This document shows, one piece after another, positions 20,020 to 23,041 of a stretch of DNA of 43,165 nt (positions within the stretch are counted from its first letter, which is position 1; the number at the start of each line of letters is the position of its first letter). Under the pieces are notes generated by a model. That model was not told the origin of the DNA, did no database searches, and worked only from the letters and a program-made list of their open reading frames with translations. Both the position numbers and the translations under genes were made by a program. Origin of the DNA: Betaproteobacteria bacterium. GTDB taxonomy: Bacteria > Pseudomonadota > Gammaproteobacteria > Burkholderiales > Burkholderiaceae_D. Where the stretch lies: assembly GCA_013287275.1 (NCBI GenBank), contig JABDED010000018.1:1-43165 (forward strand). Reading direction: 5' to 3'.

Positions 20020-21033
20020 ATGTCGCCTACAAAACCTGCCCAGTTCCCAGCCATACGCATGCGCCGCATGCGCAAGGACGTATTCTCCCGCGCACTGATG
20101 CGTGAAAACGTGGTTACGCCATCCGACCTGATTTACCCGGTGTTCGTCATCGAAGGTATCAACCAGCGGGAGAAAGTGGCATCCATGCCTGGCGTGGAAA
20201 GGGTATCGGTAGATTTATTGCTGCAAGTAGCGGAAGACTGCGTAGCCCTGGGCATTCCCGTGCTGGCGCTCTTCCCCGCCATCAATCCAGCGCTGAAAAC
20301 ACCGGACGGGGTAGAAGCCACTAATCCCAAGGGCCTGATCCCGCGCGCCGTCAGGGAACTGAAAAGCCGCTTTCCGGAACTGGGCATCCTGACCGACGTT
20401 GCACTGGATCCGTACACCAGCCACGGCCAGGACGGCCTGCTGAATGCGGACGGTTATGTACTGAACGATGAAACTACCGAAATGCTGGTCAGGCAGGCGC
20501 TGGTGCAAGCGGAAGCCGGGGTCGACATTGTGGCCCCCAGCGACATGATGGACGGCCGCATAGGCGCGATCCGCCATGCACTGGAAAGCAATAATTTCAC
20601 CCACACCCGCATCATGGCGTATTCGGCCAAATATGCATCGGCATTTTATGGTCCCTTCCGCGATGCGGTGGGTTCCGCAGCCAATCTGGGCAAGAGCGAC
20701 AAGGCCAGCTACCAGATGGACCCGGCCAACAGCAACGAAGCGCTGCGCGAAGTGGCGCTGGACCTAGCTGAAGGCGCGGACATGGTGATGGTCAAACCCG
20801 GCATGCCCTATCTGGACATCGTGCGCCGCGTGAAGGATGAGTTCAAGGTGCCGACCTTTGCCTATCAGGTCAGCGGCGAATACGCAATGATCAAGGCCGC
20901 CGCGCAAAACGGCTGGCTGGACCATAACAAGACGATGATGGAATCCATGCTGGCCTTCAAGCGTGCCGGCGCCGACGGCATCCTGACTTACTTTGCGCGC
21001 GACGTCGCCCGCCTGCTCAAGCATAGTTCATGA
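20020..21033 (+). CDS. hemB: Delta-aminolevulinic acid dehydratase (porphobilinogen synthase) HemB
   Basis: HemB condenses two 5-aminolevulinates to porphobilinogen in the cytoplasm, the second common step of tetrapyrrole synthesis. The 337-residue product has the Schiff-base lysines K204 ([17 protein letters not shown]) and K259 ([12 protein letters not shown]). At the metal site [12 protein letters not shown] replaces the Cys cluster of zinc enzymes, indicating the magnesium-type active site seen in Pseudomonas. I chose the ATG at 20020, which gives the usual length; an in-frame GTG 11 codons upstream is less likely. The stop overlaps the next gene by 4 nt. Confidence 0.96.
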
Positions 21034-21743
21034 ACGCAATAGCGCCAGCCTCGTCGGCATCGGCAGTATCGGGTTTGCGCACGCAAACGCTGTTGATAGC
21101 CGTCTGCGCCGGTCTGGCCTTGTACGGGTCCGGCGCGCAAGACAAGATGATCTGGCTGCACTATTGCTTCAAACCGCTGACTACCTTGCTGATCTTCGGC
21201 ATCGCCTGGGGCAGCCGCCCTGCCATCAGCGGGCGCTATCGCGCGGCAGTCATGCTGGGCATCCTGTTTTCACTGGCCGGCGATATCTTCCTGATGTTGC
21301 CGGCCAGCGTAATGGCCGGCGGCTTCCTGTTCGGACTGGGCAGCTTCCTGTGCGCGCACCTGTGCTTCCTGCGCGCCTTCACCGGCGACAGCAGGCTATT
21401 CGGCAAGCCGCTGATTTTCCTGGCCGTAGGCTTGCTGGGCGCAGCGAACCTGTTTATTTTATGGCCGGGCCTGAGCAGCGCCTTGCGCATGCCGGTACTC
21501 GCCTACGTCATCTGCCTGTTGACGATGAGCGCGCAGGCAATTACCCGCTATCGCTATTTGCAGACGCCGGCGAGCAGGCTGGCGGCGGCTGGCGGCCTGT
21601 TGTTCATGTTGTCCGACACGCTGCTTGCGTATAACCGCTTCCATGCGCCTTTGCCGTTTTCCGCACTGTTCATCCTGGGCAGCTATTACCCCGCGCTGTG
21701 GTGCATCGCCAACTCGGTTAAAGCCCGGCAAGCGGCGCCCTGA
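21030..21743 (+). CDS. YhhN/TMEM86-family membrane protein (predicted lysoplasmalogenase)
   Basis: The 237-residue polytopic membrane protein has about eight hydrophobic helices. Family features are the N-terminal [14 protein letters not shown], the acidic membrane residue in [13 protein letters not shown], and [10 protein letters not shown] near the C-terminus. These correspond to the conserved K-P, G-D and S-D positions of YhhN/TMEM86. Characterised TMEM86B cleaves the vinyl ether bond of lysoplasmalogens. It is coupled to hemB by an ATGA overlap and lies 47 bp before an alkylglycerol-monooxygenase-like gene. The family call is firm; the substrate in this bacterium is unknown. Confidence 0.85.
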
Positions 21744-21790
21744 CAGGCTCCTCCGTCAACCCTTGTTACCCATCAGGCAAACGACACATC

Positions 21791-23041
21791 ATGCAAGAAA
21801 AAATCATCACCTTTGCGAGCCCGGTGTTTTTCCTGTTTATTGCGATAGAACTGATCGTCGGCATCAAGCGTAGCCGCAACACCTATCGCCTGAACGATAC
21901 GCTGAACAGCCTGAGCCTGGGCATCATGAGCCAGATTGTCGGCGTATTCCTGAAAGTGCTGGCGGTCGGCGTCTATGCGTGGGTGTTTGCGCATTTTTCC
22001 GTATTCAAGCTGCCTGCCGACAATATCTGGGTCTGGGTATCCGGCCTGTTGCTGTATGACTTCCTGTATTACTGGCTGCATCGCATGGGGCACGAAACCT
22101 CATTGCTGTGGGCGGCGCATGTGGTGCACCATCAGAGCGAGGAATACAATTTGAGCACTGCCCTGCGGCAAACCAGCACCGGCTCCCTGTTCGGCTGGAT
22201 TTTTTACCTGCCGCTGGCCGTGCTTGGTTATCCGGTAGAAATTTTCATCATCATCGCGCTGATAGACTTGCTGTACCAGTTCTGGGTGCATACGCAGCAG
22301 ATCGGCAAGCTGGGCTGGTTTGACCGCGTGTTTGTGTCGCCGTCCAACCATCGCGTACACCATGCGGTCAACGACATCTACCTGGACAAGAACTATGGCG
22401 GCATCCTGATCCTGTGGGACCGGCTGTTCGGCACCTTCATCGATGAAATGGATGAACATCCTGTCGTGTATGGCACCCGCAGCCCGCTGCGCAGCTGGAA
22501 TCCGCTGTGGGCCAACCTGGAGGTATACAAGGCGGTGGCGCTGGATGCCTGGCGCGCCAGGCGCTGGGCAGATAAAGTGCAGATCTGGTTCCGGCCGCCG
22601 GGCTGGCGTCCGGCAGATGTCGCCGCCGCTTACCCGTCCAAGGCTTTCGACATCAACCGTCCGCTCTACGATCCTGCGCTGAACGGCGCCCGCATGTGGT
22701 ATTGCCTGGTGCAGTTTGTGCTGATCCTGCAAGTCACTACCCACTTCCTTACCGCCTATAACGACGCATCCTTCGGCTCGGGCCTGGCATATGCGATCTG
22801 GCTGGTAGCCGGCCTGTGGATAGTCGGCGGCCTGATGGAGCAACGCCGGCCCTATCTGCCGCTGGAGGCAGTCCGCTTGCTGGCCAGCCTGCTGATCGTC
22901 GTGCTGAGCGGCAGCTGGTTTGGCACAGTCCCATTGTCTGCGACGGCGCAAGCCGTCATCGTCGTGATCTGCATCGCTTCTCTGTGCGCACTGTGGCCCA
23001 TTTTCAAACATCGCGATCACTATGGACATCCTGTACATTAA
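21791..23041 (+). CDS. Membrane di-iron hydroxylase of the sterol desaturase superfamily, resembling alkylglycerol monooxygenase
   Basis: The 416-residue protein has membrane segments at about 8-25, 43-66, 80-96 and 132-165, plus several in the C-terminal third. The di-iron histidine boxes are H97-RMG-H101, H110-VV-H113-H114 and H187-RV-H190-H191, with H167 between. The stretch from HRMGHE through EEYNLSTALRQ, LLYQFWVHT, NHRVHH, LDKNYGGILILWDRLFGTF and VVYG closely follows my recollection of animal alkylglycerol monooxygenase (AGMO/TMEM195). That enzyme splits glyceryl ether lipids using tetrahydrobiopterin. The residues after ~290 form an extra membrane domain. Reaction and cofactor here are inference. 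It overlaps the next gene by 20 nt. Confidence 0.85.
   Translation: MQEKIITFASPVFFLFIAIELIVGIKRSRNTYRLNDTLNSLSLGIMSQIVGVFLKVLAVGVYAWVFAHFSVFKLPADNIWVWVSGLLLYDFLYYWLHRMGHETSLLWAAHVVHHQSEEYNLSTALRQTSTGSLFGWIFYLPLAVLGYPVEIFIIIALIDLLYQFWVHTQQIGKLGWFDRVFVSPSNHRVHHAVNDIYLDKNYGGILILWDRLFGTFIDEMDEHPVVYGTRSPLRSWNPLWANLEVYKAVALDAWRARRWADKVQIWFRPPGWRPADVAAAYPSKAFDINRPLYDPALNGARMWYCLVQFVLILQVTTHFLTAYNDASFGSGLAYAIWLVAGLWIVGGLMEQRRPYLPLEAVRLLASLLIVVLSGSWFGTVPLSATAQAVIVVICIASLCALWPIFKHRDHYGHPVH

Follow-up and report, generated by a model that had tools for sequence, protein, structure and literature searches.

A predicted ether-lipid cleavage module of a YhhN-family protein and an AGMO-like oxygenase encoded side by side in Burkholderiales

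Alkylglycerol monooxygenase (AGMO) and lysoplasmalogenases act on ether-linked glycerolipids by routes that both pass through a hemiacetal. Human AGMO cleaves the alkyl ether bond with release of a fatty aldehyde (PMC9131029), and lysoplasmalogenase hydrolyses the vinyl ether bond of lysoplasmalogens, from which a fatty aldehyde is also released (PMC9052158). The described lysoplasmalogenases of the YhhN/TMEM86 family include human TMEM86A and TMEM86B, Lpg1991 of Legionella, and Rv1401 of M. tuberculosis; the assayed YhhN enzymes act on lysoplasmalogens (PMC9052158, PMC11994398). Two genes encoding relatives of these enzymes lie next to each other on the plus strand of a 43,165-nucleotide stretch of DNA from a betaproteobacterium of the order Burkholderiales (positions 1-43,165 of contig JABDED010000018.1, assembly GCA_013287275.1), which is called the window here. 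The first gene, yhhN (21030-21743), encodes a 237-residue membrane protein of the lysoplasmalogenase family, and the second (21791-23041) a 416-residue AGMO-like membrane oxygenase, which is of the di-iron type by its histidine pattern. The initial annotation of the window had placed both open reading frames exactly.

We lean towards the view that the two genes constitute a membrane ether-lipid cleavage module, which would cleave lyso-ether lipids at alkyl as well as vinyl ether bonds and produce fatty aldehyde. It would be a two-enzyme or bifunctional system, and the term cleavage module denotes a prediction from sequence. In the proposed mechanism, the AGMO-like protein, as a di-iron, O2-dependent enzyme that probably uses reduced pterin, would act on 1-O-alkyl (lyso)glycerolipids and hydroxylate the carbon beside their ether oxygen. 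YhhN would hydrate the vinyl ether bond of 1-O-alkenyl lysolipids. Either reaction would yield a hemiacetal of the same kind, whose collapse would release a fatty aldehyde and leave glycerol or a glycerophospho compound; with both enzymes, the cell could remove lyso-ether lipids of the two classes and feed on them. We infer the catalytic activity, the use of pterin, the shared intermediate as the reason for the pairing, and the origin of the substrates outside the cell.

Both enzyme families are already known, and what is new within the open-access literature searched is their pairing and fusion in bacteria. No report of a pairing or fusion of YhhN with an AGMO-like protein was found in the open-access PMC literature; domain-architecture databases may already list the architecture.

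Fusion and linkage of the two genes

In many related bacteria the two genes are fused to encode a single protein, and because of this the YhhN and AGMO-like proteins probably work together. Joint action had been proposed from adjacency alone; gene fusion and the recurrence of linkage in different gene orders now support it as well. The fusion was analysed in a sample of 150 genomes from another family of the order, that of genome G128. In this family, YhhN is present in 63 genomes and the long form of the AGMO-like protein in 58, with 49 containing both, so that YhhN occurs in 49 of the 58 genomes with the long form versus 14 of the 92 without it. Fusions were found in 25 of the 150 genomes, which belong to 23 genera, as adjoining matches in an open frame of matching length with no internal stops, and the AGMO-like half comes first in all 25. 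Among these 25 genomes, 16 were examined at the level of the frame, and in every one of the 16 a single stop-to-stop frame is matched by both profiles, as it is in locus L079 from Hydrogenophaga sp., where the FA_hydroxylase and YhhN domains share one frame of 586 amino acids from the likely start. The L079 fusion scores 102 bits to FA_hydroxylase and 155 bits to YhhN, and that of G128 scores 109 and 154 bits to the same two families, all above the Pfam cut-offs. Whereas many bacteria join the AGMO-like protein to YhhN, human AGMO and TMEM86A/B are separate proteins. The adjacency and the fusion together make a unit that destroys both kinds of lyso-ether lipids the simplest account.

The fixed order of the halves would also be explained by a sequential pathway: acting like PEDS1, the AGMO-like protein would convert the alkyl ether into a vinyl ether, which YhhN would go on to hydrolyse. 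Related membrane oxygenases both desaturate and hydroxylate, and such a pathway would account for the presence of YhhN in bacteria without plasmalogen synthesis. However, the window protein matches PF04116 and not PF10520, the family of PEDS1, the AGMO-like gene frequently occurs without YhhN, and human AGMO is described as itself cleaving the alkyl ether (PMC9131029). We regard the sequential pathway as improbable.

Six fused AGMO-like rows form one group on the tree (support 100/99), which includes two unfused rows with moderate support. The YhhN halves of 17 fused rows likewise form one group (100/99), joined by five unlinked rows. Since the fused rows cluster on both trees, the fusion probably had a single origin, after which many genera would have retained it and a few may have lost it.

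Two further observations concern the fused clade. The YhhN proteins of L203, L205, L213, L218, and L227 (genomes G706, G791, G834, G761, and G716) lie inside it, and these genomes have no long AGMO-like match at E <= 1e-90; it is possible that they lost the AGMO-like half after the fusion. The genome of the window (G000) carries a second long AGMO-like gene (contig C19, 37141-38262; locus L196, 7127-8335, minus strand), with 51% identity over residues 3-354 and with an alpha/beta hydrolase and a MipA-family gene as neighbours. This second copy is unfused, yet it is positioned inside the fused clade.

The linkage of yhhN and the AGMO-like gene is non-random, and their pairing is not due to chance. 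Adjacency, which the initial annotation had seen in one genome, recurs as linkage in genomes of the genus, the order, the phylum, and the G128 family. In the genus sample of 36 genomes (the window's own and 35 others), an AGMO-like orthologue is present in 15 and YhhN in nine, all of them among the 15; the frequency of YhhN is thus 9/15 with the orthologue versus 0/21 without it (Fisher p 5e-5, which ignores kinship). The genes are side by side in eight of the nine genomes that have YhhN, and in the ninth, G022, YhhN belongs to a separate cluster, at a distance of about 4.5 kb from a second copy of the AGMO-like gene. Among 300 genomes of the order, 24 encode the long form and 14 a YhhN protein above the cut-off, with 10 encoding both, which corresponds to 10/24 with the long form versus 4/276 without it. 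The corresponding values for 398 genomes of the phylum are 24/32 versus 81/366. The long form was defined after the scores had been seen, by the gap that separates 319 from 377 bits, the best six candidates per genome were scored in the order sample and the best four in the phylum sample, and the YhhN profile was built from short seeds only.

Phylum genomes with only the short AGMO-like form, which lacks the C-terminal region, contain YhhN in 52 of 74 cases, with families f84, f85, f91, and f95 among others. A by-eye comparison of the tables found no side-by-side pair of a short form and YhhN there; one adjacent short form was found in G322 from the order sample.

The YhhN tree includes 82 rows from the 103 loci with the domain, after the removal of repeat fetches, identical rows, and rows shorter than 140 residues. 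The linked or unlinked label requires 10 changes on this tree, at least six of them forced by well-supported branches, when L060 (2.3 kb), L168 (4.5 kb), and L163/L164 (one gene between) are counted as linked. The arrangement of the genes differs among linked loci: YhhN comes first in Undibacterium and G047, and the AGMO-like gene comes first in the fusions and G303. In G629 and G645 the two genes are convergent, with a gene for an AraC-type regulator in between. The gene hemB, which precedes yhhN in the window, was not found in the fetched stretches of the linked loci of G047, G303, G629, and G645.

These arrangements bear on an explanation by operon housekeeping, according to which a hemB operon merely happens to contain two genes for membrane-lipid proteins, and common descent and genome size account for the association statistics. 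The AGMO-like gene is indeed near hemB in Undibacterium, and it is near hemB with no YhhN found in 17 Pseudomonas loci (about 1 kb) and in most Collimonas loci; the Fisher tests were made without correction for kinship. By contrast, fused single frames in 25 of the 150 genomes of one family, linkage without hemB in the stretches fetched from G047, G303, G629, and G645, the other gene orders in the last three of these genomes, and the forced label changes on the YhhN tree speak against housekeeping, which we consider improbable.

Conserved residues of the two proteins

The YhhN protein of the window matches PF07947 over residues 44-230 with 133.4 bits in a Pfam scan, above the cut-off of 25.6 bits, in line with its initial assignment to the YhhN/TMEM86 family. 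A match to PF07947 above the cut-off is shared by the described lysoplasmalogenases TMEM86A/B, Lpg1991, and Rv1401. The predicted active-site residues are K48, G84, D85, H110, G188, S195, D196, and Y219, and all eight are invariant in a six-row alignment. When matched by motif and spacing, the counterparts of the eight residues that have been tested by mutation in TMEM86A and TMEM86B are all present in YhhN. The replacement of these eight residues by alanine in the human proteins affected activity at every position except the first glycine (PMC11994398). The proposed active site of M. tuberculosis YhhN consists of K68, D102, H125, D211, and Y234 (PMC9052158), to which K48, D85, H110, D196, and Y219 correspond with similar spacing. 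Lysine, aspartate, histidine, aspartate, and tyrosine occupy these five positions in 57 of 70 YhhN rows, and one position differs in the remaining 13. The predicted model of the window protein contains eight long helices (predicted local distance difference test score (pLDDT) 85.3, predicted template modelling score (pTM) 0.83), in agreement with the eight transmembrane helices of the YhhN/TMEM86 family. No match in the PDB was found for the YhhN protein by phmmer, and none for the YhhN profile. Unlike the known YhhN/TMEM86 lysoplasmalogenases, the YhhN of the window is encoded beside an AGMO-like oxygenase, with which it is fused in other bacteria.

The AGMO-like protein belongs to the FA_hydroxylase family PF04116 (106.3 bits versus a cut-off of 31), with the catalytic domain formed by residues 82-215 (22034-22435, plus strand). 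The residues essential in human AGMO are nine histidines together with Q162, D233, N235, Y236, W243, and D244, according to the legend of Figure 2 in PMC7911779. Their counterparts in the window protein are H97, H101, H110, H113, H114, H167, H187, H190, and H191, and Q127, D199, N201, Y202, W209, and D210. All 15 essential residues are therefore present, and they are spaced as in the human protein apart from a single additional residue between Q162 and H201. The database loci considered here are the best 80 of 290 confirmed relatives in GTDB contigs, and 78 of them encode the full set of 15 residues; L067 has phenylalanine for Y236 and L078 another residue at the first histidine.

As a reference for human AGMO, a reconstructed sequence of 445 residues was used, in which all 15 published positions are correct and which scores 124.7 bits to PF24858, the AGMO C-terminal domain. 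The window protein is 32.5% identical to it over 409 aligned positions (231 bits, E 6e-74), and its relatives score up to 261 bits. The initial annotation had recognized the resemblance to AGMO in the central 120 residues; the resemblance holds, and its extent is larger, from residue 9 to residue 414 of 416. The stretches that had been quoted as signs of the family, HRMGHE, HVVHHQSEEYNLSTALRQ, LLYQFWVHT, NHRVHH, NYGGILILWDRLFGTF, and VVYG, are all found in the translation. Animal AGMO/TMEM195 and the window protein have in common the FA_hydroxylase core, the nine histidines and six other essential residues, the SEDYNLSTALRQ block, and a similar length (416 and 445 residues for the window and human proteins). 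Four helices are predicted after residue 300 of the window protein (model pLDDT 84.2), as human AGMO has four transmembrane domains beyond residue 330 (PMC7911779). The proteins differ in that the one from the window is bacterial and has a C-terminal domain that has diverged below the PF24858 cut-off. The weak similarity to PF24858 lies in residues 304-370 (22700-22900, plus strand), and because its score is under the cut-off, the protein is named AGMO-like and not AGMO. Short-form relatives have no significant similarity to the C-terminal part of human AGMO.

Core scores to the reconstructed human AGMO range from 172 to 231 bits for 32 long forms, from 110 to 192 for 22 short forms, and from 41 to 81 for nine other FA hydroxylases, and Q162 is retained in 31/32, 16/22, and 1/9 of these proteins, respectively. 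In a 64-row tree, human AGMO and the AGMO-like forms, long and short, are separated from eight of the nine other FA hydroxylases (97/92); the branch of human AGMO is long, and the tree does not assign it to either the long or the short forms. A grouping with a non-AGMO subfamily of the sterol desaturases, which the initial annotation had named as the competing outcome, was not seen in the core scores or in the tree. Searches of the PDB gave no relatives: phmmer with the AGMO-like protein found no match in the PDB, the sole PDB match of a profile of 29 AGMO-like proteins was a glycosyl hydrolase with E 0.96, and a Foldseek search of the model against the PDB, which returned nothing at E <= 0.001, is uninformative either way.

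PF04116 spans many substrate classes, and the AGMO-like protein might hydroxylate a lipid without an ether bond, such as an ornithine lipid, a sphingolipid, or a fatty acid chain, with YhhN acting on the resulting or a parallel lysolipid in a unit for membrane-lipid remodelling. The only NCBIfam match of the protein is the ornithine-lipid hydroxylase OlsE (NF052566), which is of the same FA_hydroxylase superfamily and aligns in the core; however, residues 76-222 alone are aligned, and the score of 62.8 bits is below the cut-off of 475. Remodelling would also agree with the lack of CarF/PEDS1 matches in the 36 genus genomes, which are not expected to make plasmalogen by the aerobic route. Nevertheless, the resemblance to AGMO is extensive and specific, including the SEDYNLSTALRQ block, Q162, and the weakly similar C-terminal region; Q162 is missing from eight of the nine unrelated FA hydroxylases; and the YhhN enzymes assayed so far in the cited studies act on lysoplasmalogens. 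Membrane-lipid remodelling is the less likely reading, and ether-lipid cleavage is the one that we prefer.

Gene neighbourhoods

The genome of the window is fragmented, 56% complete, and Undibacterium-like, and the AGMO-like protein shares 87% identity with that of U. terreum. The order of genes on the plus strand is engB, hemB, yhhN, the AGMO-like gene, a gene for a CorA-family transporter, and that for exodeoxyribonuclease I. The upstream neighbour hemB (19987-21033) encodes porphobilinogen synthase, with matches to PF00490 and NCBIfam NF006762 above the cut-off, and the downstream neighbour corA (23022-24122) matches PF01544 with 138 bits; both are context outside the module. The stop codon of hemB overlaps the start codon of yhhN in the sequence ATGA, a spacer of 47 bases separates yhhN from the start of the AGMO-like gene, and corA has its first start within the 3' end of the AGMO-like gene, ahead of the stop of the latter. 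Because of the two overlaps and the short gap, hemB, yhhN, the AGMO-like gene, and corA look like one transcription unit, and their co-transcription is likely as judged from gene spacing.

The gene corA is also the downstream neighbour in Undibacterium and Collimonas loci. In Collimonas, hemB is located upstream within 0.3 kb in six of eight loci and at 2.6 kb in L046; in L051 the contig ends first. Having hemB as a neighbour of the AGMO-like gene is common to Pseudomonas, Undibacterium, and Collimonas. The 17 Pseudomonas loci are L088, L092-L094, L097, L100-L106, L109, L110, L112, L113, and L116, and in L088, the sole annotated one among them, a VTT-domain gene lies between hemB and the AGMO-like gene.

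The separate cluster of G022 (L168, contig C535, 62-10292) is an apparent operon that encodes a cytochrome c/MauG-like piece, a parallel beta-helix protein with a cytochrome c domain, the AGMO-like copy, DUF6962, a TonB-dependent receptor, a beta-lactamase-fold hydrolase, YhhN, and a histidine kinase. A function in the uptake and processing of exogenous lipid is possible. As a general ether-lipid cluster it was rejected, since its other parts, with the kinase excluded, are absent from the compared loci at E <= 1e-8; the sole exception is a weak match of the TonB receptor in L070 (30% over 169 amino acids).

In G047, which is from another family, yhhN and the AGMO-like gene are one base apart, behind the gene of an AraC regulator (L192, 3150-8078). 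The row starts with a two-domain protein composed of MFS and acyltransferase parts, which we take to have the make-up of LplT-Aas, a lysophospholipid importer/acyltransferase. This arrangement suggests regulated uptake and processing of lysophospholipids. AraC regulators that share the N-terminal domain of the one in G629 and G645 directly precede the AGMO-like gene in G055 and YhhN in G047, and a relative is encoded just before the AGMO-like gene in G103; no match to this regulator was found in any of L042-L121.

Lipid substrates and implications

Several observations weigh against an ether-lipid cleavage module. The linkage is a minority state among the 80 best loci around AGMO-like genes: YhhN is present in six, being adjacent in L042, L043, L048, and L086, separated by about 2.3 kb and on the opposite strand in L060, and fused in L079, and the other 74 have no YhhN within the fetched stretch. 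The Fisher p values for the order and the phylum, 1e-9 and 2e-9, ignore kinship. In the G128 family, both genes are unfused in 24 genomes, nine genomes have the long form only, and 14 have YhhN only. Of the 105 phylum genomes with YhhN, 29 have no AGMO-like match at E <= 1e-40 among the best four candidates per genome. Six members of the genus (G014, G016, G020, G023, G028, and G034) carry the orthologue without YhhN, and YhhN was found in none of the eight Collimonas AGMO-like loci within the fetched stretch. At the level of residues, phenylalanine replaces Y236, which is essential in human AGMO, in seven of the 15 same-genus orthologues. The PF24858 score of the window protein is 20.3 bits (E 5.9e-4) versus a cut-off of 28.3; 10 of 29 relatives match at E <= 0.01, and only gammaproteobacterial L115 passes the cut-off, barely, with 29.3 bits. 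Pterin-4a-carbinolamine dehydratase, the product of the pterin-recycling gene (PF01329), is encoded in 56 of 60 relatives, irrespective of whether they carry the module, and was not found in the window's own genome, which is incomplete. As a marker of pterin use, PF01329 was dropped because it is near-universal in module and non-module relatives alike.

The absence of YhhN from some lineages probably reflects loss at the hemB/AGMO-like site. The distance from hemB to the AGMO-like match is 50-160 bases in five of the six genus members and about 300 in G023. Herminiimonas L048 contains hemB, YhhN, the AGMO-like gene, and corA in the same order as the window, which suggests that YhhN was lost at this place in the six genus members and in Collimonas.

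Ether lipids are also the substrates of CarF/PEDS1, the aerobic plasmalogen desaturase (PF10520; PMC9131029), to which the window protein has no Pfam match. PF10520 was found in none of the 36 genus genomes, the anaerobic route not having been searched, and in one of 60 relatives. Its absence from the genus makes endogenous plasmalogens unlikely by the aerobic route and favours ether lipids from outside the cell. Environmental ether lipids, from protists, animals, or myxobacteria, would be the likeliest source of substrate. A more far-reaching possibility, which we hold tentatively, is that aerobic Burkholderiales degrade the lyso-ether lipids of other organisms with a system devoted to this task. 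An AGMO-type oxygenase that depends on pterin would be co-encoded with a lysoplasmalogenase or fused to it in one bifunctional membrane enzyme, and fatty aldehyde would be released from alkyl and alkenyl lyso-ether lipids via the common hemiacetal.

A review from 2021 describes AGMO as the sole known enzyme that degrades alkylglycerols and lyso-alkylglycerophospholipids, and as an unstable protein whose purification had been unsuccessful so far (PMC7911779). If the prediction is correct, AGMO chemistry would extend to bacteria, and the bacterial homologues, the fused proteins in particular, might be more tractable for the study of structure and mechanism. The work on M. tuberculosis YhhN asks for what reason bacteria without plasmalogen synthesis have retained YhhN (PMC9052158). 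The pairing of YhhN with an AGMO-like oxygenase offers a testable answer and would indicate that ether lipids in the environment have a sink that has received little notice.

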